A stretch of DNA of 64,000 nt, taken from Eutreptiella sp. 'Long Island Sound 2002' (lineage: Eukaryota; Euglenozoa; Euglenophyceae; Eutreptiales; Eutreptiaceae). Shown one piece after another: positions 28,787 through 63,993 of the stretch (positions are counted from its first letter, which is position 1; every line of letters starts with the position of its first letter). Under the pieces are notes generated by a model that worked only from the letters and a program-made list of their open reading frames with translations, did no database searches and was not told the DNA's origin. The stretch lies in assembly GCA_964036045.1 (NCBI GenBank), contig OZ038379.1, forward strand, positions 14,644,317 through 14,708,316, written 5' to 3'. The position numbers and the translations under genes are program-made.

Positions 28787-31700
28787 TTGAAGGAGTGGGG
28801 TCCCATGTATTGGCATGGCTCCCTGGACAATACCAGACGTACGGTGGAGAAGATCATCGCGGATAGGGCGAAGGGGATCCTGGTCATAACCGGCATAGGA
28901 TCCACCCCATGTCCGCTGGAGGGTCTCAAGTCGACGCTGGACTCCATCACCCTGAACGAGATGTCATTCGGGCCAGAGGAGGAGCTGTTCATCGACGCCA
29001 AGGGTGTATCAATGCCCTCCCCGGGTCAAGCGTGGGGTACCAAGGCTTTCCTGGTGGATGGGGCGCAAGCCCAGCCCACGGGTGATGAAGCATTCATCCG
29101 TAGGGTGGAGGCGGTGCCCATGAAGGTCATGTTTGAGCCCAAGGAGGGGACGGATCAGCCAATCGATGGCATTGACGTCCTGTCCCACGCCGAGATCGAC
29201 AACGTCGTCAACTACATGCGGATGGGGATGCACGACCGTGTGGCAGCCAAGAAGAGGCGGGCCATGGTCACAGCTCCGCATTGGTGGGATGACAAGATGT
29301 TGGTCACCGGCAAGTACGAGAAGGACGAGTTCGTGGCGAGGGTCATGGATCACATCGCGGACCAATACGATGGTCCGGTTGGGTCGGACCCACCAACATG
29401 GGATTTTCCAAGAATGGGTGTCGATAGCGACAGTCACCAGCCCGAGGCTGCAAATTTTCGAACATTATCGGTCGGAAGTGCACCCCACGACGATGAAGAC
29501 GGCATATCGGACGAGGAGAAGTCGGAATCGGACCCAGAAGAGGCCTACACCACAGTGCGGTCGGTTGTATCTATACCGAAGCAAGCGGCTGAAGAGGCCC
29601 AGGAGAACCCGAAGGTCGCCGAGCTGAAGGAGAGGCTGATCAGGGCCTATCCGCGGCTATTCAGTGGCGTCGCCAACAAGAACCCTCCAGATCGTGGGAG
29701 GTTTGGTACAGCGAAGATCAAGCTGAAGCCGAACCCGAAGATCTATCGTCATCGGGACCACCAACTTCAGGGCGATCGAGCCGAGGCCATGAAGAAGCTG
29801 TTGGCCGAGTTGATTGAGCGGGGATGGATCGAACCCTCCGACAGTGAGTGGGCCAGCCCAGCCTTCATCGTGCCCAAGAAGGAGAAGGGCAAGTGGAGGT
29901 TGGTGGTCGATTACAGAGGTTTGAACGAGCAGACCGAGCACGACTCGTACTCGCTTCCCCTGATCGACTCCATCCTCCAAAAGCAACAGAAAAAGCGGAT
30001 TTTCACGGTGTTGGACCTGAAACACGGTTACCACCAGATGCCGCTACACCCGGACTCCAGGCCCTGCACAGCGATGTCGACGCCGCTGGGGCCCATGCAG
30101 TGGAAAGTGGTGCCTATGGGTGCCAAGAATGGCAACGCCGCTTTCCAGCGCATGATGGAGGACCTACTCGGTCCTGTCTGGGACTGTGCCGATCCCTTCG
30201 TGGACGACATCATCATCGGGTCCGGCACGGAGAACATGACTGAGGACGAGCTCATCGACGCGCATGAGAAGGATCTGCGCCGAGTGCTCAGCGAGTTGGA
30301 CAAGCACAACTTGGTGTGCAAGCCCACCAAAGCCTCACTCTTCGTGAAGGAAGTGGAGTTCGCGGGTCACGTGGTTGGTCACGGGCAACGCCGTCCCATG
30401 CCTGGGAAGCTGGCGTCCCTGCACCACTGGGAGAAGCCCCAGACCATCAGCGAACTCCGATCCTTCATGGGGTTCTGCAACTACTATTCGGGCTATGTCC
30501 GGATGTATGCAGAACTGTCGGGGCCGCTGCACAAGATGTTGCAAGTGGGCAAGTTCGATGGCCGGAAGGGGAGCAAGAAGAAGCTTGCCTGGACCCCTGA
30601 GGCTGAGGATGCGTTCAACCGCCTGAAGGAGCGACTCCTGGGGCAGTTGGGGCTATTCCTGGTGGACCCGGACAAGGGATTCGTGCTACGGACGGACGCC
30701 TCGGACTATGCTGTGGGGGCAGTCCTCGAGCAGATCCGAGACGACGGGTCACATGTACCCGTGGCGTTCTGGAGCCGGATCCTGGCCGAGGGCCAACGCC
30801 GTACCTGGACCGCGAGGGAGAAGGAGACGTACGCCATTGTTTGTGCGCTCAGGAAGTGGTCTGGCCACATCGGATTGCTACCGGTGGTGGTTTGCACGGA
30901 CCACCAGTCCCTACAGAGCTGGCACAAGGAGCACGTCGACACCCCCTCAGGACCAGCGGCAAGGAGGGCCCGATGGCACGAGACGTTCGCCAAGTTCGAC
31001 CTCAGCGTCGTATACGTCCCGGGGAAGGACAACACTGTGGCAGTTTGCCTCAGTCGGTGGGCCTACCCCGCGGGCAAGGCTTGGATGGACATATCCAGCC
31101 ATGGGGACGCCGAGGAGACCGAGGAGGCCAAGCGCATCATCGAGATGGAGAAGGTCATGGAGCAAGAGGGAGTCAAGTGTTTTGTGGTGATGGCAAACCG
31201 TACAGAACTGGCCAAGTTCCGGGGCGCCCGAGTCCAGGCTATTCGAGAGGAAACACTCGAGCAATGGATGGTGGCCCCTGTAGAGCTAGTCAGGTGGGTG
31301 CTCACAGAGGACTGGTCGGATGACTATGCGGCATCCGAGCACTGGAGCAAGTACTGGAATGCCGTGAGCGCCCCGTCGGACGACGAATGGCCCGAGGGCT
31401 TGACCGAGGATGGCGACAAGTTGTTCCTCAAGGACAAGCTGCTGGTGCCCGAAAACCGAGTGGAGGAGCTCATTGACCATTGGCACAACGCCCAGCTCAT
31501 GCACCCTGGCCGAGACAAGATGCTGCAGGACCTGGAGTGGCGTTTCAAGTTCCCTCCGGGGTACTACGCCATCCTGGACAGGTACTGCAGCGACTGTGCC
31601 GTGTGTCGGGCCACGAAGAGCCCCAACCACTGCACAGCAGGCAACCCGGTGTACACGGCTATACCGGAGGCCCCTATGCGGTCCGTGGCCATGGATGTAT

Positions 31701-32839
31701 TCGCCATGCCTGAGGTCACCGTGGATGGAGAGACCTACGACTGTGTCATCCTGGCGGTGGACAGGCACAGCGGGTATATCGTGGCAGTCCCGGGCAAGAA
31801 GTCCAAGAAGAAGGACAAGAAGGACAAGCATGGAGTGGGGCTGCAGGCCAAGACCGTCGCTAATGCCATGATCAGGCATTGGCTGACGATTTTTGATGTC
31901 CCGGCTGTCATCTGCAGCGATCGGGGCAGTCAATTCGTGGCGACGTGGTTCAAGACGATGTGCAAGCACATGGGGATTCGGCACGCCAAGACCGTGGCAT
32001 ACCACAGCCGGTCGAATGGCCGGGCTGAGGTGGCCGGGCGGCAGATGTTCGAGAAGTTCCGCCAGCTGCACATCGACGAACCGGGCCGGAATTGGTACAA
32101 TTCGCTGTGGAGGGTACTCCAAGCGTATCACGACCTTCCGGGGCCCACTGGACTGTCGCCCCATCGCATCCTGTTCCTACGGGATCGAGTGTCACGCACT
32201 CTCCCGTGGATGAACCATGGCAAAGTGGCCCGGGATGCGAATGCCATGATGGCTGAGGCGGACGACACGGCGGCCACGGTGTGCAAGGCACTTCAGGACG
32301 AGCATGACAAGAGGGCCAAGTACTTCAAGCAAGGGAAGGTCCAGAAGTATGCTCTCCAAGACACCGTGTGGGTGGAGCGGCACCACAAGGATGTCCTGTC
32401 CAGGCATCGGCAGGCATCTTGGTATGTGCCGGGGGTAATCGTGCGGAAGGTCGGGCAGGATGTGTATGCGGTTCGTGTGGGGGATAACAAGATCCTGGAC
32501 TGCGACCATACCCAGCTTCGTCCCCGAGCACCAGACCCCAGCGGACGTCCCGTCACCTTCGAGTTCACGGCCGGCGATGTGGACCCGGTCGACGAGGGTG
32601 AGGACGACGACTTCACCGCCGAGAAGATCCTGGCGGACAAGCCGGACCCGGGGACGCCTGGGGGTAGGCTTTATAAAGTCCGTTGGAAGGGTTTCGCCGC
32701 ATCCAGGGACTCGTGGGAACCTCCGAGCAGTTTTGTGCCGAGGTACACCACGGTCTGGATGGACTACCTAAAGAAAAAGAATATTTCTTTGGATGTCAAG
32801 GACGTATTGGTCCATTTGGTTGCTGCTGTAGCACCGTAA
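28787..32839 (+). CDS. Element B pol: degenerate Dam-like domain, RT, RNase H, integrase, chromodomain
   Basis: A 1,350-codon ORF. Residues 1-95 match the Dam-like segment of A and C in order (MYWHGSL, GILVITGI, KAFLVDGA), but the NPPF/CPPY motif is replaced by HGSL. Then come RT (KWRLVVDYRGLN, PFVDDIIIGS), RNase H (LRTDASDYAVGAVL, TDHQSLQSW), integrase with HHCC (HWHNAQLMH...CSDCAVC) and DDE residues (VAMDVF, ICSDRGSQF, NGRAE), and a C-terminal chromodomain (AEKILADK, LYKVRWKGFAASRDSWEP). It ends in TAA. Apart from the 5' end it is intact, with all catalytic residues present. Confidence 0.95.
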   Translation: MKEWGPMYWHGSLDNTRRTVEKIIADRAKGILVITGIGSTPCPLEGLKSTLDSITLNEMSFGPEEELFIDAKGVSMPSPGQAWGTKAFLVDGAQAQPTGDEAFIRRVEAVPMKVMFEPKEGTDQPIDGIDVLSHAEIDNVVNYMRMGMHDRVAAKKRRAMVTAPHWWDDKMLVTGKYEKDEFVARVMDHIADQYDGPVGSDPPTWDFPRMGVDSDSHQPEAANFRTLSVGSAPHDDEDGISDEEKSESDPEEAYTTVRSVVSIPKQAAEEAQENPKVAELKERLIRAYPRLFSGVANKNPPDRGRFGTAKIKLKPNPKIYRHRDHQLQGDRAEAMKKLLAELIERGWIEPSDSEWASPAFIVPKKEKGKWRLVVDYRGLNEQTEHDSYSLPLIDSILQKQQKKRIFTVLDLKHGYHQMPLHPDSRPCTAMSTPLGPMQWKVVPMGAKNGNAAFQRMMEDLLGPVWDCADPFVDDIIIGSGTENMTEDELIDAHEKDLRRVLSELDKHNLVCKPTKASLFVKEVEFAGHVVGHGQRRPMPGKLASLHHWEKPQTISELRSFMGFCNYYSGYVRMYAELSGPLHKMLQVGKFDGRKGSKKKLAWTPEAEDAFNRLKERLLGQLGLFLVDPDKGFVLRTDASDYAVGAVLEQIRDDGSHVPVAFWSRILAEGQRRTWTAREKETYAIVCALRKWSGHIGLLPVVVCTDHQSLQSWHKEHVDTPSGPAARRARWHETFAKFDLSVVYVPGKDNTVAVCLSRWAYPAGKAWMDISSHGDAEETEEAKRIIEMEKVMEQEGVKCFVVMANRTELAKFRGARVQAIREETLEQWMVAPVELVRWVLTEDWSDDYAASEHWSKYWNAVSAPSDDEWPEGLTEDGDKLFLKDKLLVPENRVEELIDHWHNAQLMHPGRDKMLQDLEWRFKFPPGYYAILDRYCSDCAVCRATKSPNHCTAGNPVYTAIPEAPMRSVAMDVFAMPEVTVDGETYDCVILAVDRHSGYIVAVPGKKSKKKDKKDKHGVGLQAKTVANAMIRHWLTIFDVPAVICSDRGSQFVATWFKTMCKHMGIRHAKTVAYHSRSNGRAEVAGRQMFEKFRQLHIDEPGRNWYNSLWRVLQAYHDLPGPTGLSPHRILFLRDRVSRTLPWMNHGKVARDANAMMAEADDTAATVCKALQDEHDKRAKYFKQGKVQKYALQDTVWVERHHKDVLSRHRQASWYVPGVIVRKVGQDVYAVRVGDNKILDCDHTQLRPRAPDPSGRPVTFEFTAGDVDPVDEGEDDDFTAEKILADKPDPGTPGGRLYKVRWKGFAASRDSWEPPSSFVPRYTTVWMDYLKKKNISLDVKDVLVHLVAAVAP

Positions 32840-33232: not shown

Positions 33233-35595
33233 TGAAGCCGGTTCGGACCCCCCTGGCCATCTTGGGGTCACTTGGGGTGTGGATCTATGTGCCGGCAAGC
33301 CGCCATTGGCTGATATCATACTCTCCCATCCACCTGACCTAACCCGATGTGATAGTGTGATAGGTTTGGCCATTCCGGCTATGAGCGGCCATATTCAGTA
33401 CCGAGGCGCCGCCAGCGGAGATTTATATATCGGAATATCAGGAATCAACAGGGTTTTATTATCATGATGTTTCCGTAATTTTTCAGCCTTTCGTTCTGAT
33501 GGTCAATGTATCGGCGACTGTCAGTTGGCTCGCGATTTTGGGTTAACCGATTGGTTAACTGTTATTTCCAGATATTTTGGCGGATATTCCGTTGAAGGGT
33601 CAGATTTCATCAGCGAAGGGTTCGTTGCTTCCGCAATTCTCTAAATAAGCACTCGAAATTTTAATCAGAATTTTTCGCGATGTCGAAATCGGATTTTCGA
33701 CTTCGACATCGCCGCACTTGATTTGGACTTCTTCGAGTGGTCATACTCCTTTCCCTATGCCCGAATCAGGTTTCCCTTGTACTTGCCACCCATTTGACTT
33801 GGAGATATAAGGGAAACAAAAGTGAATCTTGGGACCACTTTGAAGGACCATATCTACGCGCGAGTGTGAGGAGAGAGAATAAGGAAGGTTGTGTTGCAAG
33901 CGCCGTGGTCTCAAGTTAATTTAGGAAGCATCAAACGCCTTTGGTGTGTACACATACCCGATATAGCAAGGGATAATGGTCAAGAGGGTATAAAGTGATA
34001 TATAACTCTTGGACCGTGCAACCGAACATTTTATTGTGACTTTCGAGTGTACCGCATGAGTGTTGGGGTTGCATAGCAACTTTCCTTGGGTTCCCACGTA
34101 TTTTTAACGTGAAGTTATGTCAATGGAGGGACATGGCATATCATGGTGGGAGCCATATTTTGAGGGTATGTGTTGTATGCATGGTATATGTTTGATATGC
34201 TCACGCCCATGTTATATATCTTCGTGTGGCCGAAGAGAAGGGGAGCCATACGTGACAAGGGCTTTGCCCATGTCCCAATTGTGGAATTCAAAGCGCTAGA
34301 CCAAGTCTACCGCGTATGTATTGCTCATGGTATGTTTGACAAAGAGATCCGTGGGTGCACTCCCATTTTCATGGGGCATGTAGATATTAGTGGCGAAGGT
34401 ATCTCCATGCACCCGATTGGGGATCCAAGTGGGGGAATTGTCCGCAAATGGTTCCAATCATTTGTGTATTGAATCATGAGCGGATATCATGGGTGAGCAT
34501 AGAGATATAATATCATGACAACTTTGTATTTGGTCATATTTTCATGTTTTTGACCTCAATTTTTGCTCATTTTTGCGTTTTGTGTACTTACCTGGTCAGC
34601 ATACAGCAAGAAGCCTATGGAGAGTCGAACCATGGTATGTTGTTCATATGTTGGCATATGCTTCGGAGTTGAACACCACCATATGCCGGATCGCGTACTC
34701 CATTTGGCTTGGCGCACGAGAGATTACAAGAATTGGTCTCAAAATCATGGGCTGGCTTGGGCAGTGCGTGGCGCCCATATCTGAAGGGGTTTCGAGGGTA
34801 AAATGGGGATGTACATGGGCATTGGCCTTTGGTCTCTATCCTCCATGAATACTAGACTTCGATTCCATGCATGCTTTGAGCCTTTGGATAAGTGGTAACA
34901 TCAATTTTGAGCATATATATGATATATGGCCAATATGGTGTGAATTGGCAGTTTTTTGGCATGTTATGAGTTCAAACTCATAGGTCATTCCTCCAAGCCC
35001 ATTCGACTCCAAGTCCAACCAAGGTTATGTCAGGGTAGGGCATGGTCCTGAGTGCCACTCTAGGCCATGACACGCCACCTCCCCTATTGGGCTAGGATTT
35101 AGAGGCTTGGGAGTGAACACATTTTTGGGGTTTATGTAGTGACTTTTGATACATGGCATTTAACCATCTTATTGGACTGGGTTCAGGGCATCATGTTGGT
35201 GAGTCAAGGGAAGGTCTTGAGTCCAGGGAATGAGGGGTCTATGGCTGTGATTGTGTAAGTTTCCATCTTTCCCCACCTTTGCTTTATTTGTGTTCATATG
35301 CCAATTTCAGGGCTTTCTTCCTTGGTGCAATTCTTGTACATGCCCGCCACCGTGGGAAGGCCGGTGTGCTGAACGAAAGCCCGCAGCCTGATTTGGATTG
35401 TGAATTGGGCTATTGCTATACTTGTGGGATCTGGTTGCTGTTCAGGGTTGAAGGAGGATTACATTTTCTATATTTTTGGATTTGAACCCTGGATCTTGAG
35501 GATTTTGAGAAATGCAATCGTTGATCCGGAGCAAGTCAGCAGGGGTGACAGGCCGAAGGGGCACAGCGGGGGCCGGTCCTGGTAGGGACCTTCTT
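33233..35595 (+). repeat. Element B 3' LTR, lacking only its last two bases
   Basis: It matches 22416-24778 without visible indels and with scattered substitutions. Instead of ending TTCTTTA it breaks after TTCTT and runs straight into an internal LTR position (GCTTCCGCAATT). Confidence 0.92.
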
Positions 35596-37566
35596 GCTTC
35601 CGCAATTCTCTAAATAAGCACTCGAAATTTTAATCAGAATTTTTCGCGATGTCGAAATCGGATTTTCGACTTCGACATCGCCGCACTTGATTTGGACTTC
35701 TTCGAGTGGTCATACTCCTTTCCCTATGCCCGAATCAGGTTTCCCTTGTACTTGCCACCCATTTGACTTGGAGATATAAGGGAAACAAAAGTGAATCGTG
35801 GGACCACTTTGAAGGACCACATCTACGCGCGAGTGTGAGGAGAGAGAATAAGGAAGGTTGCGTTGCAAGCGCCGTGGTCTCAAGTTAATTTAGGGAGCAT
35901 CAAACGCCTTTGGTTTGTACACATACCCGATATAGCAAGGGATAATGGTCAAGAGGGTATAAAGTGATATATAACTCTTGGACCGTGCAACCGAACATTT
36001 TATTGTGACTTTCGAGTGTACCGCATGAGTGTTGGGGTTGCATAGCAACTTTCCTTGGGTTCCCACGTATTTTTAACGTGAAGTTATGTCAATGGAGGGA
36101 CATGGCATATCATGGTGGGAGCCATATTTTGAGGGTATGTGTTGTATGCATGGTATATGTTTGATATGCTCACGCCCATGTTATATATCTTCGTGTGGCC
36201 GAAGAGAAGGGGAGCCATACGTGACAAGGGCTTTGCCCATGTCCCAATTGTGGAATTCAAAGCGCTAGACCAAGTCTACCGCGTATGTATTGCTCATGGT
36301 ATGTTTGACAAAGAGATCCGTGGGTGCACTCCCATTTTCATGGGGCATGTAGATATTAGTGGAGAAGGTATCTCCATGCGCCCGATTGGGGATCCAAGTG
36401 GGGGAATTGTCTGCAACTGGTTCCAATCATTTGTGTATTGAATCATGAGCGGATATCATGGGTGAGCATAGAGATATACTATCATGACAACTTTGTATTT
36501 GGTCATATTTTCATGTTTTTGACCTCAATTGTTGCTCATTTTTGCGTTTTGTGTACTTACCTGGTCAGCATACAGCAAGAAGCCTATGGAGAGTCGGACC
36601 ATGGTATGTTGTTCATATGTTGGCATATGCTTCGGAGTTGAACACCACCATATGCCGGATTGCGTACTACATTTGGCTTGGCGCACGAGAGATTACAAGA
36701 ATTGGTCTCAAAATCATGGGCTGACTTGGGCAGTGCGTGGCGCCCATATCCGAAGGGGTTTCGAGGGTAAAATGGGGATGTACATGGGCATTGGCCTTTG
36801 GTCTCTATCCTCCATGAATACTAGACTTCGATTCCATGCATGCTTTGAGCCTTCGGATAAGTGGTAACATCAATTTTGAGCATATATGTGATATATGGCC
36901 AATATGGTGTGAATTGGCAGTTTTTTGGCATGTTATGAGTTCAAACTCATAGGTCATTTCTCCAAGCCCATTCGACTCCAAGTCGAACCAAAGTTATGTC
37001 AGGGTAGGGCATGGTCCTGAGTGCCACTCTAGGCCATGACACGCCACCTCCCCTATTGGGCTAGGATTTAGAGGCTTGGGAGTGAACACATTTTTGGGGT
37101 TTATGTAGTGACTTTTGATACATGGCATTTAACCATCTTATTGTACTGGGTTCAGGGCATCATGTTGGTGAGTCAAGGGAAGGTCTTGAGTCCAGGGAAT
37201 GAGGGGTCTATGGCTGTGATTGTGTAAGTTTCCATCTTTCCCCACCTTTGCTTTATTTGTGTTCATATGCCAATTTCAGGGCTTTCTTCCTTGGTGCAAT
37301 TCTTGTACATGCCCGCCACCGTGGGAAGACCGGTGTGCTGAACGAAAGCCCGCAGCCTGATTTGGATTGTGAATTGGGCTATTGCTATACTTGTGGGATC
37401 TGGTTGCTGTTCAGGGTTGAAGGAGGATTACATTTTCTATATTTTTGGATTTGGACCCTGGATCTTGAGGATTTTGAGAAATGCAATCGTTGATCCGGAG
37501 CAAGTCAGCAGGGGTGACAGGCGGAAGGGGCACAGCGGGGGCCGGTCCTGGTAGGGACCTTCTTTA
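35596..37566 (+). repeat. Tandem second LTR copy of B, 5' truncated
   Basis: 1,971 bp matching 22810-24780; the first 394 bp of the LTR are missing. The junction shares TT with the end of the first copy. Because the target duplication lies outside this copy, the 3' LTR was enlarged by an internal tandem duplication, not by a second insertion. Confidence 0.88.
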
Positions 37567-37570
37567 TGTT

Positions 37571-44397: not shown

Positions 44398-44930
44398 TGA
44401 AAGTGCTGCCCTGGGTTGTTGATGGTGCCGGAGGGCTCGGGGCCGGCAAGACCAGTGGGGCAGGCACGCGAGGAGTCTCCCTGAACGCTGCTATTGGGGG
44501 TAGAACCGGATACTCGGACACCAACGGAGGCGAGAGCAGCAACAACTGAAGCAAGGTCCATGCTGATTGTTATCCGGCAGAAAATCCCAGTCTATGAAGA
44601 AAATTGATGCGGATTATTGTAAATACATCTGAGTGTCCAAAACTGTCTGAAAAGATTTAAATAAATCCGATTGTGAAAAATATTTGGCCGATCTGGCCCG
44701 CGAGCGCGCGTCAGCGGCAAATGGCGATTCCAGGCAAATGATCGGAACGCGGCGGATTTACGGAGAATGGACCGCGGAATCAGATCCGGCATATCAAAAA
44801 TATATAGGTCTGATCCTGAGACTGAGCTGCGAGGCGGCGATTCCGCCGAAGCAAAGAAAATGACCAAAATGTAGTCAATCTGGGTTAGATCAGTGAAAAT
44901 CTGGGCAGATGGGGGTTAGCCGCACTTACA
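44398..44930 (-). repeat. Element C 3' LTR (533 bp)
   Basis: Plus-strand ends TGAAAGTG...CACTTACA, nearly identical to 63461-63993. A reading frame starting in this LTR runs out into E's RT, fusing an LTR-encoded peptide to YIDD-containing sequence; this is a by-product of the LTR start codon. Confidence 0.97.
44798..44806 (-). promoter_or_regulatory. Candidate TATA box in C 3' LTR
   Basis: TATATATTT on the minus strand, about 125 bases into the LTR, is in the position expected of a U3 promoter. Confidence 0.4.
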
Positions 44931-51763: not shown

Positions 51764-53307
51764 GGCGTTCTGACCTCCAGTGTTTGCGTTAACGTTGTGA
51801 ACACACCCTGATTCGTCGACCCACTCATCTTGGAACGGATCATCTGCTGGGTTCAAGGCATTTTCAACGTAATCTCGATCCGCATCGGACACCTGATCTG
51901 CACCTGAGACCTGATCCACACGATGGTTGCCCTTTCCACGTCCACGGCCACGGCCGCCGGATGATGGACCTCCACCGTCGCCACGCCCTCTGCCCTTACC
52001 AGAGAAAGGGGTTCCCGAAGGATTTCCCTTACCTTTACCCTGTGATCCTGGAGCATTTCCCTTGTTTGTACCGGATTGAGGGGTTTGGCCTGGATTTCGA
52101 TTTCCGCCTCCGGCGTTGCCATTGGGATTTTTCTGGCCGTTCGGCTGCCCACCGGAGCCGGATGGAGTCCGATTTCCTGTGCCTTGGGACCCGCCAGGGC
52201 CTCCAGTATTTTTGTTTCCACCGGAGGGGGTCGGATTCCCTTTTCCCCCCTTTCCACCATGCACCTGTCTGTCATTCCTGTCTGAATTCTGCGGATTACT
52301 GATATTTTCACCAATCACCTTGTGATCGTAAGGAGACCATCGGTGATTACCAGTAGAATGCGACTTAGCTCGGTTCGTAGAACCTAAAAGAAGGCAGATG
52401 CTACAGTGATCCTGAACATTCCGGGTGTCATTCACCTTTTTGTTGCCCTTTTGGGCCCCATTTTGGGTGTTTTGCTGGGTATTCTTGTTTCCCCCAAGAC
52501 CCTCATGGAAATTTTGATTGGCGGCGTCAGCGAGCCGCTCAACCTCTTCCCAGAGTTCCTGCGGGGTGAACGAAAACACCCAGTTCTTGGCCTTCAGGCG
52601 ATGGCCATGGAAACTTACTCCCCTGTTGAGGACTTGGACAAACAAGTCCCGATCCTCGTGTTCATTAAACTTGATTTTCCACGTGTTTTCAGTGAATTTC
52701 ACCTTGGTAAACGACGTGGGGGAACACTTTTGAAGTGATTCCCTGACGGAGAACCTGTTGGCCGAGGCATCGAAGCCTTCGACCTCCGCCCACCAGGTCT
52801 TGACCTTTTCTTCGGACTGTTTATTCCGAAGGGTGGCGGCAGTTTCTGAGGGGATCTTGTCAAAAATCAGATTTTTCAGCTCGGCACTAGAAAAATTTTC
52901 GCCTGAATGTTCAGATTCTTCCACTAGATTCCAGAAGCGCTGTCTTTTGTCTTGCACTTCGTGCAAGATTAATCGAGAGAATGAAGGAAAATTCTTCAAC
53001 ATCTGGTGGTAATGGTCCTCTGGCAGCCGGGATCCACGTACCTCCAACTGTTCCCACACCTCATCAAAGGTAAGGGGGGAACTTGAATCCTCACGATCAC
53101 TCCAGGTCCTGAGCCAAGTGTTGGCCGGCGCTCCCTCAAGGCAGTCCAAGAGGGCCATCAGGAACTGATCATCTTGGAGTTTTTGAGTCTTAACCCACAG
53201 TTTAAATTCCCGTTGGAACTGAGGCCAACGTCTGGGGTTTCCATTATACTTCGGTTGCTTGGCAACCTGACGAAGTCGCAATGAAGTGGGATTAAGAAGC
53301 GAATCCA
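51761..53307 (-). CDS. Element C gag, C-terminal part (left of LINE D)
   Basis: This holds the gag capsid-like domain (PKYNGNPRRWPQFQREFKLW, LMALLDCLEGAPANTWL), a Cys/His motif (CSICLLLG...SHSTGNH) and a Gly-rich nucleocapsid tail with GKGKGNPSG- and GRGRGKG-type repeats, ending in UAG. The first 1,112 bases (52196-53307) are duplicated at 61027-62138 on the other side of D. The N-terminus of gag therefore lies in the right-hand copy. Confidence 0.9.
52196..53307. repeat. 1,112-bp direct duplication flanking LINE D, left copy
   Basis: It matches 61027-62138 at a constant offset of 8,831 bases. No difference was seen in the stretches compared, and the derived ORFs are identical. The edges are sharp: AGGGCCTCCAG at the start and GAATCCA at the end. 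Confidence 0.95.
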
Positions 53308-53391
53308 TCTCACTTTCTGAGTGTCTATTTTTTTTCGATTTCAGCATTTCTGTAATGCAGTAAAGTCAAATCAAATACAAATCGTCCTGAT

Positions 53392-56139
53392 TTGACGATT
53401 TCTGGGCGTGCAGATCAGTCCCATCAACAAAATAGCATCACAATCGACTATCCACAAGCCTTTATCACCAACGAGTCCATCCACATCTGTTTTATCGTCC
53501 ACGGATACCGTCGACCATCTCTTGTCAATTATACCATCAATAACACCTACATTGCCGCGCCCAACATGTCATTCCTATTTGGTGGAAACAAAGCTGCTCA
53601 ACCCGCTCAATTCGAAATATCCACGAACCTCAGGCTGGAACAACCTTCAACGTCAAAATTGGCGGCTTTTGTGGCTGCTTCCGAGCAAAAGGCGGTGCAA
53701 AACGACTTTCACTTCTATGTCCTGAATGAGAACAAATCAAAAGCCTTCAACCGGAAAAAGGTCTCCCTGCCGGCGGCGGCGAGACAACAATTGTATGATC
53801 TTTCTCCTTGGAGCGTAGGTCTTGGTGAAGACGACTTGCACATTTCATTCAACGACTTACAACTACCTCTCCAACAACCGCAACACTCGGTGACCGCCGC
53901 TCATGAGCCCATCAAGCACCTCAAGGACATCCTCAAAAAACATGGCAGTTTCTACGTCTTCCCAGGCAATGATAAAAAGGATCAACCCCCCAATTATTTG
54001 TCATCAAAAATTTGGTCCAAGGCCATCAAAAAGGCTTTTGCCGAACTCAAGGCGGAGGACGACTCCAAAACGTACTCCGGGTGGATCACCATGGAGACAT
54101 GGGAAAAACACACCACCGCCCACAACCACCTTCTCTACGCGGCCGGGCCGCTCATCGATTTGAAGTGGGCGGTGGACAAAGTAGTGTGTCACCACGGTAC
54201 ATCCCCAAGAATTCCCACAAGAGCGTTCTCGCTAAAAGATGGCAATCTTCCCGAACGCCCATTCGTATCAATCCATGTGAACTCGGGCCGAAAAGCAAAT
54301 GAACCCATTGACTACAAAAACTACGACTCACGAGGGATGAACCTCCAAGCGGCACTCCAAACCATTAATATCCAAAAGACCATCTCTTCTATAGATGTGA
54401 ACCTCCGGTTTGATGCACACCGAGATATATTGTATAAATATTATAACGATATATTCCTTAAGGAAGTGGGTGAAAACAAAAACCCCACCCCGGTTTCGGA
54501 ACGCACTCTCACGAACGTGAGAGGTTTTCAAAAATTCATCAACCACACATTCGAGCCCGGTCAAGAAAACGTGTCATTGAACTCAAAAAATGCGGCGTAT
54601 CCCTTGGGTGGCGGGGCAATTTTACGTTCACCACACGAAAAGTTTTTGAGATTTGAATGGCACTTGCCGGCACAAAGAGCCAACCGACTTTTACAATTGG
54701 TGCTCAACCACGAGTGGTCTCGAACCGGATACATTTTCGTGATAAGGGTGAGTGACCTTGAGGCCGGGAATCTTTACCAATTGCAAGCTTCGCGCGAAAT
54801 GATAGCCTCACACCCGGAAATGGATGCCATGGAAACATGGAGTATTTTGTGCAAAGCCCCACATTGCAAACCCCCACGAATCCACTTGAAAGGTACCACA
54901 CTTCGCACGAAGATGAGCGTCTTAGCTAATCTCGACGTCTCCGGAGTCCCTTGCGATGGAGGTCGCAATCCGGTGCAATCTTTTGCTTGGAATGCCTTCA
55001 ACAACGATGGCATAGTGCTTTTCTATGGCCCGGAGGCCTCTCTGGTTCGGTTTTGGAATTCCACTGCCTCAAATGAGGCCAAACAACAATCACCACAACT
55101 CACCCCCATTCTACCTCACACATGGGCAACGCCCCCCAACCCCACTTCTTTTGAAGTCCGTGCCCCCACCTCCGAAAGGACCTTGCACGCACAAATAGTG
55201 GCCGGCCTATTTGGACCCTTCGCCCATTGGAGAAAAGCGGCCGACCCCACCTATGAAGGAAATGTTTTCCGTGCGGAGTATAAAAATCCTGACTCTATAG
55301 CACTTGCCCATGGCTTCACGGTAAACGGAACCGCCATCGTTTGCGCACATCCAAATGAACTTCGAAAGGCGACCCTCATGGCGGAGGAAGCGGCTGACCT
55401 CACGCCCGAGAATAAAATTGTGATGGCAGGGACACGCCTTGGTTCGCAAGCCTTCATATCAGCTTTGGTAGAAGAGGATGAACGATTGGCTAACCTTCCA
55501 CTGCCCTCTGATGAAAAAATAAACCTGATGGACGCCGCCTCCCCAAACGATGAATCCGATGGGGCTCTTGCAGGAGTGCTGGTAACCCCCCACGCCTTTG
55601 ACGTCGAGCAAGAAGAAGGACTCCTTGAGTTCGTGAACCACAAAATCCAGGGCTGGGACACATCCACTCGTCGCAACCTAAAGCACTTTGGCTTCTCACA
55701 TGATAAGGGCGGAGGGAACATCGCGAAGTGTGAGGCCATCCCAACCTCTCTTGAGACCATCAAGCAGCTTGCACAACAATTGTTGAACGAAAATGATGTA
55801 AACGAAGAAATCAACCAGTGCACGGTCGCAGACTACCCGCCAGCTGTAGGAATAACTGAGCATCTTGAGAATTTCATGCTCGGCAAAGTGGTGGTAACAG
55901 CCAACCTGCTTACATCCGTGCCCATGCACTTTGTCCACAAGGACGGGGGAGACCGAACCACCATCATCCTGGAGCGTTACTCACTGGTGGCGCTGACCGG
56001 CAAGAACAGGTTTAACTACAAGCATGGCATACCATCAGCGGAGTCAGACATGATAAATGGCGAATCAGTCCGACGGGAGAGACGCATCTCGCTGATCTTC
56101 CGTAGCGTTCCACACATTGACATTGATGATGGAGAGTAA
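53392..56139 (+). CDS. LINE D ORF1 with RRM-like and AlkB-type 2OG-Fe(II) dioxygenase domains
   Basis: 915 codons; a more natural start may be the ATG at 53567 (MSFLFGGNK). The first 580 residues match no family I recognise. Residues about 591-653 resemble an RRM (FGPFAHW, GNVFRAEY, GFTVNGTAIV). The C-terminus (about 745-910) matches AlkB/ALKBH8-type dioxygenases: RRNLKHFGFSHDKGGGNI, then NQCTVADYPPAVGITEHLE (metal ligands His824 and Glu826, an HxE variant of HxD), LTGKNRFNYKHGI (distal His878) and RRERRISLIFR (2-oxoglutarate-binding Arg). AlkB enzymes remove alkyl or methyl groups from RNA or DNA. RRM plus AlkB recalls the host protein ALKBH8, but here it sits in a retrotransposon ORF1. It ends in TAA. 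Confidence 0.85.
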   Translation: MTISGRADQSHQQNSITIDYPQAFITNESIHICFIVHGYRRPSLVNYTINNTYIAAPNMSFLFGGNKAAQPAQFEISTNLRLEQPSTSKLAAFVAASEQKAVQNDFHFYVLNENKSKAFNRKKVSLPAAARQQLYDLSPWSVGLGEDDLHISFNDLQLPLQQPQHSVTAAHEPIKHLKDILKKHGSFYVFPGNDKKDQPPNYLSSKIWSKAIKKAFAELKAEDDSKTYSGWITMETWEKHTTAHNHLLYAAGPLIDLKWAVDKVVCHHGTSPRIPTRAFSLKDGNLPERPFVSIHVNSGRKANEPIDYKNYDSRGMNLQAALQTINIQKTISSIDVNLRFDAHRDILYKYYNDIFLKEVGENKNPTPVSERTLTNVRGFQKFINHTFEPGQENVSLNSKNAAYPLGGGAILRSPHEKFLRFEWHLPAQRANRLLQLVLNHEWSRTGYIFVIRVSDLEAGNLYQLQASREMIASHPEMDAMETWSILCKAPHCKPPRIHLKGTTLRTKMSVLANLDVSGVPCDGGRNPVQSFAWNAFNNDGIVLFYGPEASLVRFWNSTASNEAKQQSPQLTPILPHTWATPPNPTSFEVRAPTSERTLHAQIVAGLFGPFAHWRKAADPTYEGNVFRAEYKNPDSIALAHGFTVNGTAIVCAHPNELRKATLMAEEAADLTPENKIVMAGTRLGSQAFISALVEEDERLANLPLPSDEKINLMDAASPNDESDGALAGVLVTPHAFDVEQEEGLLEFVNHKIQGWDTSTRRNLKHFGFSHDKGGGNIAKCEAIPTSLETIKQLAQQLLNENDVNEEINQCTVADYPPAVGITEHLENFMLGKVVVTANLLTSVPMHFVHKDGGDRTTIILERYSLVALTGKNRFNYKHGIPSAESDMINGESVRRERRISLIFRSVPHIDIDDGE

Positions 56140-57754
56140 CAACACACTCATGCTCCTTTGCACACCTTTTCCCTACTCAAGCCAACCCTGTGCAACACAT
56201 ATCAAACACAACACCATGAGATCTGCCTCACATGGGTCCCTGTACCACTCCGGTCACGAAGACCACCACACTGTCAACACCCCTATGGCTTGCTTTCCTA
56301 GGCTCTTCTTTTATGGACGGTCAGCCTACTCAGTGTCAGCATCCGTTTGGAGCTCACAGGAGGAAGCGTACACCGAGATCCAAAAAGAAGGGCAGGTATA
56401 CACCACGAACCCCCCATGTACACGGTCGTGCACCGATCTTCATGGAGTGGCCGTCCTCGATGCGTGGAGTGGTGATCGCTCACATAGCCCAGTCAGAAAC
56501 AAGCTGCCCCTGCCCCCATGGACTGCCCCCCCCTTCTACTACCTGGCCCTGCAGGTTTGCCATCTGTCTGGATACTGTTATGAGACACGTTCAATTAATC
56601 CACATTTGCTGCAGAGCAGTGAAGTGTGTTCCCTGCCCTACACGCATTGTTCACACACACACGCTTGTGAGCTGGTGGACATATGTGCACTGCCCCATGC
56701 AATAGCGTTGCACGCCTCGCAGAGTGTCCGAAAACCAATCCAAGGCAAATATTTTCCTGAGGGGACAGAATGGTCGCCGTGCCCACAAGAATTTTACCAA
56801 CAGTGTAACCGGCTCTTCTCTTATGGACGGTCAGCCTACCCAGTGACAGCATCCGTTTGGAGCTCACAGGAGGAAGCACACACCGAGGTCCAAAAAGAAG
56901 AGCAGGTATACCCCACAAACCCCCCATGTGCACGGTCGTGCACCGATCTTCTTCGTGTGGCCGTCCTCATAACGTGGAGTGGTGGTCGCCCACGTAGCTC
57001 ATTCAGTGGCAAGCTGTCCCTGGCCCCATTTACTGGCCCCCCCTTCTACAGCCTGGTCCTGCAGTATTATCATCTGCCTGTGGACCGTTATGCGAGAAGT
57101 TCAATTAAACCACGCTTGCTGCGGAGCAGAGCAGTGTGTTCTCTACCCCACACGCATAGTTCACTCACACACGCAACAGCTCCACATGCCTCGCAGGGTG
57201 TTCACCAGCCGGGCCATTGCAGTTATTGTCCCGGAGTGCCTGAATGGGCGCCGTACCCACATGCATTTTGCCAGCAGTGTGACCTCTGGTATCCCATACA
57301 TCTCGCATTTCGTTACGGCGTTCATGTCAAGTACACACATGATTCTCCCCACATTCTGGCTCAGCCCTTAACCCTCACTGTTCCACCTCAGGGCCTCCTG
57401 TGTCCGGCTATGTCAGCGATTGGCGAATCAATTCAGTTGTCAGCTAAAACCCAGTCAAATGAGGTAAGTACTGTTAAAGTCCATCGCCAACGTCCGTTCT
57501 CTCGGCAACGGCAAAGGCACAGTTCAGAAAGCTGCCCACAGCACGCCCCTGCTTCCTCAGTGATCCGACTCGCTGTTCATAAAAGAATACCCACAGTGCG
57601 TGCCACTACCATGCGATTATCTCGATGGATCTCCTCGAGGTCATTTTGCGCCTCCCTCCTCTTGCACAACTTGTATGGCCTGCCGATTACCTTCCGCTCC
57701 AGAAGCAGTCACTGGCGTTCTTCACGCGCGCCACACGTCAGCGATGAAGGATAG
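56117..57754 (+). CDS. LINE D possible middle ORF with two tandem 170-residue repeats
   Basis: 545 open codons begin at the end of ORF1, with an ATG-ATG overlapping its stop. DNA at 56301-56810 is repeated at 56811 to about 57290 with a 510-bp period, a multiple of three, so the frame is kept and the peptide repeats (RLFFYGRSAYSVSASVWSSQ and RLFSYGRSAYPVTASVWSSQ). Cys and His are frequent, and near the end a CSYC...CQQC pair could bind zinc. No family was recognised. Another frame is also partly open with a basic stretch, so coding status is uncertain; it may be a duplicated spacer between ORF1 and ORF2. Confidence 0.4.
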   Translation: MTLMMESNNTLMLLCTPFPYSSQPCATHIKHNTMRSASHGSLYHSGHEDHHTVNTPMACFPRLFFYGRSAYSVSASVWSSQEEAYTEIQKEGQVYTTNPPCTRSCTDLHGVAVLDAWSGDRSHSPVRNKLPLPPWTAPPFYYLALQVCHLSGYCYETRSINPHLLQSSEVCSLPYTHCSHTHACELVDICALPHAIALHASQSVRKPIQGKYFPEGTEWSPCPQEFYQQCNRLFSYGRSAYPVTASVWSSQEEAHTEVQKEEQVYPTNPPCARSCTDLLRVAVLITWSGGRPRSSFSGKLSLAPFTGPPFYSLVLQYYHLPVDRYARSSIKPRLLRSRAVCSLPHTHSSLTHATAPHASQGVHQPGHCSYCPGVPEWAPYPHAFCQQCDLWYPIHLAFRYGVHVKYTHDSPHILAQPLTLTVPPQGLLCPAMSAIGESIQLSAKTQSNEVSTVKVHRQRPFSRQRQRHSSESCPQHAPASSVIRLAVHKRIPTVRATTMRLSRWISSRSFCASLLLHNLYGLPITFRSRSSHWRSSRAPHVSDEG

Positions 57755-60700
57755 TCTGTATGATTACTTGAAACTGATCGGCCTAGATGCATGCAGTGCC
57801 CAGCTCAATGAAAATATAAATCGCGATCAACCTCCTGCACCACACGACGGCAACAACCCCCCAGACCCACCCGAATTATTTCCCCCTCGCCCTCCCCCCC
57901 CCCCACAAGATTCAGGGTCTGTCCCCGAAGTCACAACCATCAAAATCAAATCACACAATATTAATAAGCACAAGCCGGAAGCTTATGTCCATGCGGATTT
58001 ACACGAGGGGTGGGACATTGTCTTCTACCAGGAACTGTCCGCTGCCCCACTCCTACCCTTTGGTTGGAACTCTGACCAAAGCTCCCCGAAAGTACTCTCC
58101 TCACTGCTTTTGTCTGGGGCTGAGGGAGCATGCATAGTAATATCTGCTAGGCTAGCCCCTTTTGTCACTGCACTTCCCTCCCCGAGTCCGGGAGCCATAT
58201 GTGCTTCTGTACTTCACCTCCCAGGTCAGCCCCCCATACTCCTGGTATCCCTATATGCCCAGCCCCCCCGTCGGCCTGAACTCGAAAAATCCTTGAATGC
58301 CCTCTTCCAAAAATATCCCTTGTGGATTGTGGGAGGTGACTTCAACGCTCAAGTGTCCAGCTTGGACACTAATGGGAAGACAGTGAACAAGTGGAAATGG
58401 CTCTCCTCGTTAGTGGAGGAAAAAAAAGACGCCGTCGACTCATTCAGGATGAAAAATAATGATACCCTAGCCTACACTCGGTACCGAAACCCTCTTCTTC
58501 CTTGTGACACAAGGATTGACTTATTGCTACTTTCCCAACCACTGATTGCCACCCCGGCACTGCATGTTCTTGAGGCACACATTATCCAACATGATGTCTC
58601 CTCGGACCATCACCCCATCTCGGCGAGTATCGAACTTCCGTTCACCCCCGCACACCCTTTACCCCAACCCCACACTCTGTTCAGACGTCTGAATCAATCG
58701 GAAGAACTAGAGTTCCTGAAGAGCATCCAGCAGCTCGAACAATGGGCATACGAGGTGACGCGTGTGCAGGTTTCACCACACCGCCTTGTCCAATTCATTA
58801 ATTCTGTGGTCCCCCAACTTGCGCGAGCCTTTCATCAGATTACCAGACCATGCAATCCCCACAGAGAGACCCCAATCGAGCGCGAATTCAAAGAACGGCT
58901 TTCCCAATTGCCGAAAGGCCACGCTCAGCGCACACGCGCCCTTCGTCGCTTACAAGAGCTCAGCGAGTCATGGAGGGCTCGCCAGTCCAAAAGGGAGAAA
59001 AAAAAATTGCATTATGCCATGGTAAAAGGTTCAAAAATCAAAAAGGCCATCGATAAGGCCCTGAGGCCGGATCAGACGCAACACATTCAGCTCCGGGATG
59101 ACAGTACCAACCCCCCGAGAATGGAATCCGACCCTCAAAAAGTGGGGGATATGTTCTCTGCATGCCTGTCGCGCCTTGGGGGAGATCCTGAATTCCAGGT
59201 GAATGAACGGCGCCTGCAGGAATTCATCACCAACCTGCCCAAGTGTCCTGAACCCACCCGAACCGAACCTTTACCGCTCCCTGATATTAAGTGGCTGCAA
59301 GAAACTACCCAGGCCGCCAAGCCTACTAAGGCCACGGGCGAGGATGAAATAAATTATTACTTGGTCTCTCTCCTGCCCCCTGCCCTACAGCAATTACTGC
59401 TGCAGGCCATACATTTCATCCTCACCCACGGCCCTCCCCCTGAGTGGTCTTCAGCCAGGGTATGTCTTCTCTACAAAAAAGGAGACAGACACGATCCTGT
59501 AAATTATCGCCCCATTTGCCTCATACAGACATTGGTGAAACTCTCCTCTGCCTGGCAATGTTCTCAGTTGAAAGGGTTAACCCAAAAGCATAAACTAGTT
59601 CACCCATGCCAACACGGGGGCTTGAACAACCACCGATGTGGTGACCACATTTACGACGTGGTATCCAGGATGCTCCTGTCTAAAGGGCGCCTGTATCATC
59701 TGTACATTGACTTTAATAAAGCATTTAATTCAATACCCCTACAGGGATTATGGACCACATTACGGGGTTATGGGTTCCCAGAGTCCTTGATTCTTTCCAT
59801 TCAACGCATGTACGACCATGCTGTTGAACAACCGTTAGTAAACGGAATCCCCACCTCGGGCCACACCCAAAAACGAGGCGTTAGACAGGGATGCCCACTC
59901 AGCCCCCTTCTATTCATTCTGTATCTTAACTTAATGTTTTTTTACTTGGACACAGTCATGGACTGGGGTTTAGAGTGCAGCATTCACGCATTTATAGACG
60001 ACATTTTATTCAGAGCCAGATCAGTACAGGATATTAAAAAGGTATATGAAGCATTTGACGGCCCAGCCAGGGAGTTGGGGTTGGACATGAACATCACGAA
60101 AACGGAGTTGCACGCAGTTAAAGGCACTGGACACACGGAGATTCACTCACGGCACGGGGGGGTTTTGTCAACCAGAAAAGCAGACGGATCCCCCCATCAG
60201 GTTTATAAGTACCTAGGTGTGTACTTTTACACCAGCGAGCATGCATATCAGGTTCTACAGTGTGTCAAGTCCATGATTAACTCCTTCTATGCTCACCTGG
60301 CCCCCCTCCAACTCACTGCATCCGAGCTTATAATGCTCACTAATAAGCAACTCATACCTACCGTGGCGTACCGTCTACTCGCAGGCCCAGTGCCAGCAAC
60401 ACAGCTACACTCACTCCAGCAAACAGTGTGGTACAATCTCTGTAAATATGGCCGTCTCCCTCGGTCAATGTCTCCTAAAGACCGACACACCACTATGAAA
60501 CTCGTCCCTCTGGAAACTTTTGTTCAGTCGCAAATTCATAATTACTCGATGCGTTATCTCAACGAAGACGGCCCAACACAATCAAACCACTTCGTTCGCA
60601 AGGCCCTCCTGTCACCCACTACTAACTGGTTACAGGAGGCGTTCGTAGACGCAACCAATGCGCTGGGAGGCAGGTGTCATGGCTTCGGGCCCTGGAACCC

Positions 60701-61026
60701 ATGCAAAACAGACAGTCTGATGCCCGGAGAAGAAGTGCACGTCCAGTTCAACTCAGGATGGCACACGGGGACAGTTCTAGATTACGACGAACACGCACAA
60801 GCTTCAAAAATACGATTCCACTCTGATGGCACTGAATTCCATGTGAAAGACAAGCTGCACAATTTCTCCCTGCACCCGCCCCCGCAACTACTTCCAGACC
60901 CCCCCCCTCAGAGCACACACGTGAAACTGGCCCCCCCATTGCTCTCCCTGCCCCCTCCTTTGCCCCCCTACCCGCCACCTTATGGCTCTCAGTTTGTGGA
61001 ATCCAACCAGTTTGGTCACTTATTCG
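57600..61026 (+). CDS. LINE D ORF2: APE endonuclease, reverse transcriptase, Tudor-like C-terminus
   Basis: After a Pro-rich N-terminus, the AP-endonuclease-like domain (about residues 115-350) shows SHNINKHK, FYQELSA (catalytic Glu), VGGDFNAQ, RIDLLLL and SSDHHPIS, a complete catalytic set. The RT (about 600-880) shows NYRPICL, LYIDFNKAFNSI, RGVRQGCPLSPLLF and the active site HAFIDDILF. No RNase H is seen. Residues about 1041-1090 resemble a Tudor-type reader: GEEVHVQFNSGWHTGTVLDY, then IRFHSDGTEF. A Pro-rich tail follows. The frame has no stop inside D; it continues through the 3' junction into antisense gag and ends at TGA (61131-61133), showing 3' truncation. Confidence 0.92.
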
Positions 61027-62138
61027 AGGGCCTCCAGTATTTTTGTTTCCACCGGAGGGGGTCGGATTCCCTTTTCCCCCCTTTCCACCATGCACCTGTC
61101 TGTCATTCCTGTCTGAATTCTGCGGATTACTGATATTTTCACCAATCACCTTGTGATCGTAAGGAGACCATCGGTGATTACCAGTAGAATGCGACTTAGC
61201 TCGGTTCGTAGAACCTAAAAGAAGGCAGATGCTACAGTGATCCTGAACATTCCGGGTGTCATTCACCTTTTTGTTGCCCTTTTGGGCCCCATTTTGGGTG
61301 TTTTGCTGGGTATTCTTGTTTCCCCCAAGACCCTCATGGAAATTTTGATTGGCGGCGTCAGCGAGCCGCTCAACCTCTTCCCAGAGTTCCTGCGGGGTGA
61401 ACGAAAACACCCAGTTCTTGGCCTTCAGGCGATGGCCATGGAAACTTACTCCCCTGTTGAGGACTTGGACAAACAAGTCCCGATCCTCGTGTTCATTAAA
61501 CTTGATTTTCCACGTGTTTTCAGTGAATTTCACCTTGGTAAACGACGTGGGGGAACACTTTTGAAGTGATTCCCTGACGGAGAACCTGTTGGCCGAGGCA
61601 TCGAAGCCTTCGACCTCCGCCCACCAGGTCTTGACCTTTTCTTCGGACTGTTTATTCCGAAGGGTGGCGGCAGTTTCTGAGGGGATCTTGTCAAAAATCA
61701 GATTTTTCAGCTCGGCACTAGAAAAATTTTCGCCTGAATGTTCAGATTCTTCCACTAGATTCCAGAAGCGCTGTCTTTTGTCTTGCACTTCGTGCAAGAT
61801 TAATCGAGAGAATGAAGGAAAATTCTTCAACATCTGGTGGTAATGGTCCTCTGGCAGCCGGGATCCACGTACCTCCAACTGTTCCCACACCTCATCAAAG
61901 GTAAGGGGGGAACTTGAATCCTCACGATCACTCCAGGTCCTGAGCCAAGTGTTGGCCGGCGCTCCCTCAAGGCAGTCCAAGAGGGCCATCAGGAACTGAT
62001 CATCTTGGAGTTTTTGAGTCTTAACCCACAGTTTAAATTCCCGTTGGAACTGAGGCCAACGTCTGGGGTTTCCATTATACTTCGGTTGCTTGGCAACCTG
62101 ACGAAGTCGCAATGAAGTGGGATTAAGAAGCGAATCCA
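61027..62138. repeat. 1,112-bp direct duplication flanking LINE D, right copy
   Basis: Matches 52196-53307. Beyond 62138 the sequence continues as genuine C gag; beyond the left copy's end it changes to LINE D. Confidence 0.95.
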
Positions 62139-62808: not shown

Positions 62809-63624
62809 CTATTTCGGGAAGGGGCTTGCCTCCCAGATCTGCAAAAAAATGGCAAAAGAGTCATCTTCTTGAGAACGCCACCACATCCTGGTATTAATTT
62901 CTTCTTGAAGGAGGAAAAAATATTCCATTAAAAAATCAGAGGCGATTCTTTCTTGTCCTATCAGCTTAGACGTGGCTAATAGACAAAGGGCCTCAAGGCT
63001 CTGAAGGTTACGGGTCACTTCTGAAGACAAATGGTTGTCCCATTGTGCCCAAGAGGCTGGTCGATTATAGCTAGGTACCTCACCTGGACCACCCATCTCA
63101 ATGTCGTCAATGTCGGCTTCGATGGTCTCGAATGTTGGACATTGGTGAGGAATGTGGGTACCTGCCAGCTCCGTAAGGTCTACCGGAGCGTTGCCATCGT
63201 CGTAGGCTGGGAGATTCCAGCTGCTTGATGGCCAATTTCGACTGGGATTTGGAAAATTTGAGTCTCCACAGCTGCTGATTTGTGCCCTTCTTGGACAGCT
63301 TGGGCTTGCGCAAGGCATTCCTCTCAAGGCCTCGTTCGCACAGCACCAGGGCAACGTAATCGTTACTTCTCCGGAGGTGGCGGGGTCTACGGGGCCGTAC
63401 TGGGGAGCTAGCTGTGGTTGGGACACCAAAGGAACAACATTCAGGTAGCCTCTGCTACCATGAAAGTGCTGCCCTGGGTCGTTGATGGTGCCGGAGGGCT
63501 CGGGGCCGGCAAGACCAGTGGGGCAGGCACGCGAGGAGTCTCCCTGAACGCTGCTATTGGGGGTAGAACCGGATACTTGGACACCAACGGAGGCGAGAGC
63601 AGCAACAACTGAAGCAAGGTCCAT
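62809..63624 (-). CDS. Element C leader/gag ORF starting inside the LTR
   Basis: The ATG at 63624 lies 164 bases inside the 5' LTR. The frame crosses the PBS as FHGSRGY and runs 271 codons to TAG (62809-62811). The same frame continues open into gag, so this is either the true gag N-terminus interrupted by a UAG or a separate upstream ORF. It has a mid-region acidic stretch (FETIEADIDDIEMGGPGEV) and a helical end. No known domain was recognised. Confidence 0.7.
   Translation of the reverse strand: MDLASVVAALASVGVQVSGSTPNSSVQGDSSRACPTGLAGPEPSGTINDPGQHFHGSRGYLNVVPLVSQPQLAPQYGPVDPATSGEVTITLPWCCANEALRGMPCASPSCPRRAQISSCGDSNFPNPSRNWPSSSWNLPAYDDGNAPVDLTELAGTHIPHQCPTFETIEADIDDIEMGGPGEVPSYNRPASWAQWDNHLSSEVTRNLQSLEALCLLATSKLIGQERIASDFLMEYFFLLQEEINTRMWWRSQEDDSFAIFLQIWEASPFPK
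63449..63460 (-). promoter_or_regulatory. Element C primer-binding site
   Basis: TGGTAGCAGAGG on the minus strand abuts the LTR end TTTCA, as in A and B. Confidence 0.88.
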
Positions 63625-63993
63625 GCTGATTGTTATCCGGCAGAAAATCCCAGTCTATGAAGAAAATTGATGCGGATTATTCTAAATACATCTGAGTGTC
63701 CAAAACTGTCTGAAAAGATTTAAATAAATCCGATTGTGAAAAATATTTGGCCGATCTGGCCCGCGAGCGCGCGTCAGCGGCAAATGGCGATTCCAGGCAA
63801 ATGATCGGAACGCGGCGGATTTACGGAGAATGGACCGCGGAATCAGATCCGGCATATCAAAAATATATAGGTCTGATCCTGAGACTGAGCTGCGAGGCGG
63901 CGATTCTGCCGAAGCAAAGAAAATGACCAAAATGTAGTCAATCTGGGTTAGATCAGTGAAAATCTGGGCAGATGGGGGTTAGCCGCACTTACA
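63461..63993 (-). repeat. Element C 5' LTR (533 bp)
   Basis: Partner of 44398-44930 with four substitutions noted. The candidate TATA box lies at 63861-63869. The last seven window bases (63994-64000) start with the AGATG target duplication and belong to E's RT gene. Confidence 0.97.

Follow-up and report, generated by a model that had tools for sequence, protein, structure and literature searches.

Organization of the locus

The window (the entire stretch of 64,000 nucleotides analyzed from Eutreptiella sp. 'Long Island Sound 2002') carries a LINE copy located within gag of a Ty3 LTR element. The main features of the unit and its flanks are the following (the parts of the AlkB-like domain and of the frame between the two ORFs are given below):

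52196..53307, no strand: left member of the flanking direct repeat pair (1,112 bp, gag sequence), 100% identical to 61027-62138
53308..61026, + strand: LINE copy, 7,719 bp, inside gag of the Ty3 LTR element (which is on the - strand)
53308..53565, + strand: 5' untranslated region, assuming a start at ATG 53566, as homologue starts suggest
53566..56139, + strand: ORF1, 857 codons when read from the ATG with the best support (ORF list, homologue starts)
57744..61026, + strand: ORF2, APE endonuclease and reverse transcriptase; the last ~40 codons and the stop are apparently missing (ORF list, Pfam, relatives)
58014..58610, + strand: APE-type endonuclease domain of ORF2
59484..60221, + strand: reverse transcriptase domain of ORF2
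61027..62138, no strand: right member of the same exact pair of 1,112-bp direct repeats (self-comparison of the window)

The Ty3 element is bounded by LTRs at 44398-44930 and 63461-63993, which are 99.25% identical. The limits of the LINE unit were set by the exact flanking repeats, the junctions with which were read, and both ORFs fall within them. The simplest reading is that the LINE inserted into gag, leaving a very long target-site duplication; an origin of the 1,112-bp repeat by unequal recombination or an assembly error is possible.

The endonuclease domain of ORF2 was matched by PF03372 (E 1.3e-5) and PF14529 (E 1.3e-7), and the reverse transcriptase domain, in which FIDD was read as the active-site motif, by PF00078 (E 7.1e-27). 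A profile of five ORF2 proteins matched the structures of R2 and of LINE-1 ORF2p. The element thus combines APE endonuclease and reverse transcriptase in a single ORF2, as is expected of an APE-type LINE, and self-comparison of the window revealed no repeat at the unit's own ends that could represent LTRs. Near the C-terminus of ORF2, a weak chromo/Tudor-like segment was observed at 60723-60821 (Chromo_MORC2_6th, E 0.00053 with the cut-out piece, under the curated cut-off).

At its 3' end, ORF2 runs into gag with neither stop nor tail. Since two ORF2 relatives, P0007 (99% identical) and P0009 (59%), extend ~40 residues beyond a shared FGHLF, and the tails of the two are alike (score 65, which was reached by 0 of 5,000 shuffles), we infer that the extreme end of ORF2 and the 3' UTR are missing from the copy. 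An intact 3' end with a tail and a short target-site duplication was not found in the window's LINE copy. By its proteins the family is a LINE; the insertion in the window is irregular. The linkage of ORF1 and ORF2 was seen in one copy, and no second copy of the LINE occurs within the window.

Elsewhere in the window, an inverted repeat (3172-4781 and 8983-10592, 99.6% identical) carries a U1 and a U3 RNA gene in each arm, which identify the window as eukaryotic nuclear DNA; no tRNA genes were found in it. Three repeats of ~2-2.4 kb (22416-24778, 33233-35595 and 35591-37568; 98.7-99.2% identical), situated around a chromodomain Ty3 element (28787-32839), look like LTRs, one of them doubled in tandem.

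The ORF1 reading frame

An earlier reading, made from the letters and their ORFs alone (hereafter the sequence-only reading), had described an intact ORF1 of 915 codons. The frame is open as stated, from 53392 to 56139 on the + strand in the mechanical ORF list of the window, and in this copy ORF1 is whole, in contrast to ORF2. The first codon of the frame, however, is TTG. Translation was placed at ATG 53566 (MSFLFGG..) because two homologues point to this same codon: P0002 starts there and P0003 aligns with it. The ORF1 protein is therefore probably 857 residues long, which is likelier than 915. Residue numbers in this report (e.g., H824 or 781-904) follow the 915-codon reading from TTG 53392.

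The same reading had placed an RRM-like segment ahead of the C-terminal domain. This was not borne out: searches of pieces of ORF1 returned no Pfam match to an RRM at E values up to 10 (Pfam may miss divergent RRMs), and a six-sequence profile of the segment preceding the AlkB-like domain had no PDB match up to E 10. CCHC knuckles and an SGNH esterase were likewise absent from the Pfam matches of ORF1, NCBIfam added nothing for this protein, and no RNA-binding domain was recognized outside the AlkB-like part by Pfam or the PDB profile. The AlphaFold2 (AF2) model of full-length ORF1 was poor (mean pLDDT 38), too weak to judge the presence of an RRM, and Foldseek gave no match to it at E values up to 0.001.

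An AlkB-like domain at the C-terminus of ORF1

The C-terminal part of ORF1 is occupied by a predicted oxygenase domain with the following components:

55549..56136, + strand: AlkB-like 2OG-Fe(II) oxygenase domain, residues 720-915 of the 915-codon ORF
55861..55869, + strand: HLE (H824, E826), supplying the HxE part of the predicted iron site
56023..56025, + strand: predicted distal iron histidine H878 (in KHGI), from the alignment with relatives
56083..56103, + strand: RxxxxxR (R898...R904), predicted 2OG-binding arginine and AlkB-type second arginine, from the alignment, with roles taken from PMC544882

The claim that ORF1 ends in an AlkB-type domain was upheld by several lines of analysis. 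PF13532 (2OG-FeII_Oxy_2) matched residues 781-904 with an E value of 6.3e-9 (36.8 bits versus a curated cut-off of 31.2), and human ALKBH8 matched residues 727-890 (E 1.3e-11). A profile built from five families retrieved ALKBH8 (7.2e-19), ALKBH7 (2.1e-10) and Ofd2 (8.3e-10), together with NMAD-1 as a weak match (0.0055). PF13532 was also matched by 5 of the 7 members of the ORF1 alignment, including the window copy, at E values up to 1. The core motifs named in the sequence-only reading, HFGF, NQC..YPP..GI..H, KHGI and RRISLIFR, were all found.

Structure prediction, which had been proposed as a check, agreed with these results. The AF2 model of the domain was good (pLDDT 86.7, pTM 0.85), and the best 50 of its 351 Foldseek matches (E up to 0.001) were AlkB-family entries, part of them by title; those titled merely as DNA-repair enzymes were taken by us to belong to the AlkB family. 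NMAD-1, ALKBH2 and bacterial AlkB were among the fold matches listed. The model thus has the double-stranded beta-helix fold of the AlkB type, and the presence of an AlkB-like domain at the C-terminus of ORF1 is regarded as real, on the strength of both sequence comparison and modeling.

The predicted active site

The predicted metal site comprises H824-x-E826...H878, followed by R898-x5-R904. In AlkB homologues, according to excerpts of PMC544882, the HxD motif, the distal histidine and RxxxxxR are basically the sole totally conserved residues, where HxD and the distal histidine bind iron and the first arginine binds 2OG. The distal histidine and RxxxxxR are present in the LINE domain; HxD, which is found in the aligned ALKBH8, ALKBH7 and Ofd2 chains, is replaced by HxE, and the domain is therefore designated AlkB-like rather than canonical AlkB.

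The HxE variant had been pointed out in the sequence-only reading, and it extends well beyond the window. Twenty relatives (P0001-P0005 and P0023-P0037; P0038, an ALKBH7, was excluded) were examined at the predicted catalytic positions, and counts refer to those having a residue there. The glutamate was present in all 19, so HxE is a family trait as judged from the alignment, not a mutation private to the window copy. The site is largely kept: the first iron histidine was found in 18 of 19 (lacking in one), the distal histidine in 14 of 16 (lacking in two), R898 in 12 of 15 and R904 in 13 of 14. Missing catalytic residues in some relatives would be expected of broken copies.

Conservation of the five predicted catalytic columns was evaluated in 19 rows (the window, P0001 and P0038 being left out) over the 194 columns in which 10 or more letters were present. 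Their mean identity was 0.90, versus 0.71 for all columns, and 323 of 20,000 random five-column sets (about 1.6%) reached 0.90. Some of the rows represent broken copies, and the test provides modest support for conservation of the site.

Recurrence in related ORF1 families

When ORF1 was used as the query of a protein search (7,993 candidates scored), six clusters, P0001-P0006, were returned. P0001 (25 member sequences) is 99% identical to the window ORF1; P0002, P0003, P0004, P0005 and P0006 are 58, 58, 56, 58 and 45% identical to it and have 13, 19, 21, 31 and 1 members, respectively. The AlkB-like domain ends ORF1 in five of the six representatives (P0001-P0005, accounting for 109 member sequences). 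The exception is the single sequence of P0006, which stops just before the domain and could be either an AlkB-less lineage or a broken copy. An ORF1 ending ahead of the domain, named in the sequence-only reading as evidence that would count against it, was therefore encountered in one cluster and not in the other five.

In the four diverged families that carry the domain, identity to the window was 51-60% in the AlkB-like part, versus 53-69% in ORF1 residues 131-700; the N-terminal part (residues 59-130) showed 38-49% identity in three families. A search with the domain alone gave 16 matches, consisting of 15 further pieces of such a domain (126-299 aa) and one crayfish ALKBH7. The full sequences of seven of these 15 pieces start with ORF1 sequence, which suggests that these seven are broken or truncated copies of ORF1 rather than stand-alone AlkB genes. 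No relatives were detected in IMG/VR contigs (with the AlkB or the ORF2 profile), in GTDB genome contigs (AlkB profile) or in phage records. The results as a whole support the AlkB-type identity of the domain, its location within the ORF1 of a LINE and its repeated occurrence among related ORF1 families.

An open frame between ORF1 and ORF2

That ORF1 precedes an APE-reverse transcriptase ORF2 had been stated correctly, except that ORF2 has no stop of its own in this copy and that a further frame of 545 codons is interposed:

56126..57754, + strand: open frame between ORF1 and ORF2 (mechanical ORF 56117-57754, 545 codons; ATG 56126 or 56129), overlapping the end of ORF1 and the start of ORF2
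56301..57174, + strand: two direct repeats within this frame (56301-56664 and 56811-57174), 85% identical and 510 bp apart, by self-comparison

Over the tested region the frame stays open for 534 codons, a length reached in none of 2,000 first-order Markov simulations (longest, 378). Counted from its second ATG (56129, in-frame with the first at 56126), the frame has an 11-nt overlap with ORF1 up to the stop of the latter (56137-56139), and an overlap of the same length runs from the ATG of ORF2 (57744) to the stop of the intervening frame (57752-57754). Coupled stop-start translation is known for some LINEs, and the equal overlaps resemble such an arrangement. It is possible from these features that the frame represents a third cistron of the LINE. 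Two observations count against coding: Pfam gave no match for the frame, and the mismatches between the two repeats (23, 20 and 13 at codon positions 1, 2 and 3) are not concentrated at third positions.

Possible function of the domain

We consider the chances to be about even that the domain acts as an oxidative demethylase on the element's RNA, with the remainder of ORF1p keeping it in the LINE ribonucleoprotein. In this proposal, an APE-type LINE family would have captured an AlkB-like 2OG-Fe(II) oxygenase as the C-terminal domain of ORF1p and kept it. The oxygenase would sit on the element's RNA, since ORF1 proteins are presumed to package LINE RNA (excerpts of PMC3905857). With Fe(II) and 2-oxoglutarate, it would oxidize N-methyl groups on that RNA, whether these are host-imposed marks or alkylation damage (such as m1A/m3C) at which reverse transcriptase halts, allowing the template to persist and be copied at the target. 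We infer the catalytic activity, RNA as the substrate and the benefit to the element by analogy: demethylation of LINE RNA is thought most likely because the AlkB protein of an orchid Ty3/gypsy element, which binds RNA, demethylates m6A in vitro, as excerpts of PMC9289625 describe. Plant-virus AlkB proteins also demethylate RNA in vitro, as cited there. The proposal draws on the domain and its predicted fold, on the recurrence in other ORF1 families, on the conserved catalytic columns and on the occurrence of ORF1 and ORF2 in one unit within the gag gene, as expected if the two move together. The HxE iron motif, the lack of a recognized RNA-binding domain, the domain-less P0006 and the catalytic residues missing from some relatives speak against it.

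The iron motif also bears on a somewhat unlikely alternative, in which the domain is a modified, non-demethylating descendant (serving in RNA binding, as a structural part, or in another 2OG reaction, such as hydroxylation of tRNA bases or protein side chains) and HxE marks the change. ALKBH8 and ALKBH7 are not known as ordinary repair demethylases. Their standing as the closest sequence relatives, together with the glutamate in all 19 relatives with a residue there, is consistent with such a descent; a glutamate, however, retains the carboxylate ligand, the distal histidine and the arginines are mostly kept, and HxE also occurs in several unrelated 2OG oxygenases. An action on DNA, by which N-methyl marks (such as 6mA) or lesions would be removed from the chromosomal target or the new cDNA, easing insertion or escape from silencing, is unlikely in our estimation. 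Some enzymes with the AlkB fold demethylate DNA, the fold matches listed include NMAD-1, ALKBH2 and bacterial AlkB, and NMAD-1 recurs, weakly, in the sequence profile search; yet ALKBH8 and ALKBH7, the nearest solved sequence relatives, rank far ahead of NMAD-1. Excerpts of two reports point in opposite directions here: TET/JBP enzymes occur in 11 fungal DNA-transposon lineages (PMC12730594), and ORF1 proteins are presumed to package RNA (PMC3905857).

That a host AlkB gene merely lies beside the LINE, or is read into it from outside the element, is highly improbable. Such a reading draws on the single element in which both ORFs were read, and is opposed by the fusion of the domain to the ORF1 body in five cluster representatives (109 member sequences) and by the position of both ORFs in one unit, between the 1,112-bp repeats inside the gag gene.

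The demethylase proposal can be extended to a more tentative picture, to which we attach somewhat less than even chances: the LINE ORF1p would be a built-in eraser, a ribonucleoprotein-bound AlkB oxygenase of the HxE type that strips methyl groups from the RNA of the element ahead of target-primed reverse transcription or in its course; the LINE itself may be translated from three cistrons linked by equal 11-nt stop/start overlaps. If true, and as far as the searches reach, this would be the first case of a non-LTR retrotransposon with an oxidative demethylase, and its ORF1p would add a class of architecture to those described. Methylation marks on RNA and DNA are regarded as contested between retroelements and their hosts, and the literature covered here has 2OG erasers in RNA viruses of plants, in an LTR element of an orchid and in DNA transposons of fungi. 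An eraser in the protein presumed to coat LINE RNA would offer a direct handle on whether LINE copying is limited by RNA methylation or alkylation damage. The shared HxE iron site would, moreover, serve as a natural test of an AlkB-like active site with a longer carboxylate.

Comparison with known systems

The sequence-only reading knew of no AlkB domain in a LINE ORF1. None was seen in a LINE or another non-LTR element among the papers listed from the CC-licensed PMC library. The presence of AlkB in retroelements is itself not new, given the precedent of the orchid (Phalaenopsis) Ty3/gypsy element, in which, similarly, a retroelement has captured and kept an AlkB-family domain (AlkB/2-ODD ORF) at a protein C-terminus (excerpts of PMC9289625). 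According to the same source, the orchid element is an LTR retrotransposon with an ALKBH5-like AlkB in an additional ORF beside the polyprotein, whereas the Eutreptiella element is an APE-type LINE with the domain as part of ORF1p; this domain has HxE, and its nearest sequence relatives are ALKBH8 and ALKBH7.

The replicase polyproteins of plant RNA viruses provide another case of a selfish RNA replicon with a fused AlkB domain, for which RNA repair was proposed; there, in contrast to the LINE, the domain resides in a replicase and HxD is kept, except in one Vitivirus sequence (excerpts of PMC544882). The TET/JBP enzymes of fungal DNA transposons resemble the LINE domain as Fe(II)/2OG dioxygenases on mobile elements, with escape from methylation-based silencing as the proposed role, and differ in not being AlkB and in being carried by DNA transposons; no retrotransposon with TET/JBP was found, according to excerpts of that report (PMC12730594). 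Human ALKBH8 (RRM-AlkB) is the best sequence match for the LINE domain, yet it is a tRNA-modifying enzyme with an RRM and HxD, unlike ORF1, which has HxE and in which no RRM was detected.

A parallel in architecture is the SGNH esterase ORF1p of LINEs such as ZfL2-1, in which an enzymatic domain was likewise added at the C-terminus of ORF1p. According to excerpts of PMC3905857, LINE ORF1p falls into LINE-1-like, Jockey-like and esterase classes; the third of these architectures carries a lipolytic esterase of unrelated fold, where the Eutreptiella ORF1p ends in a predicted AlkB-like oxygenase.
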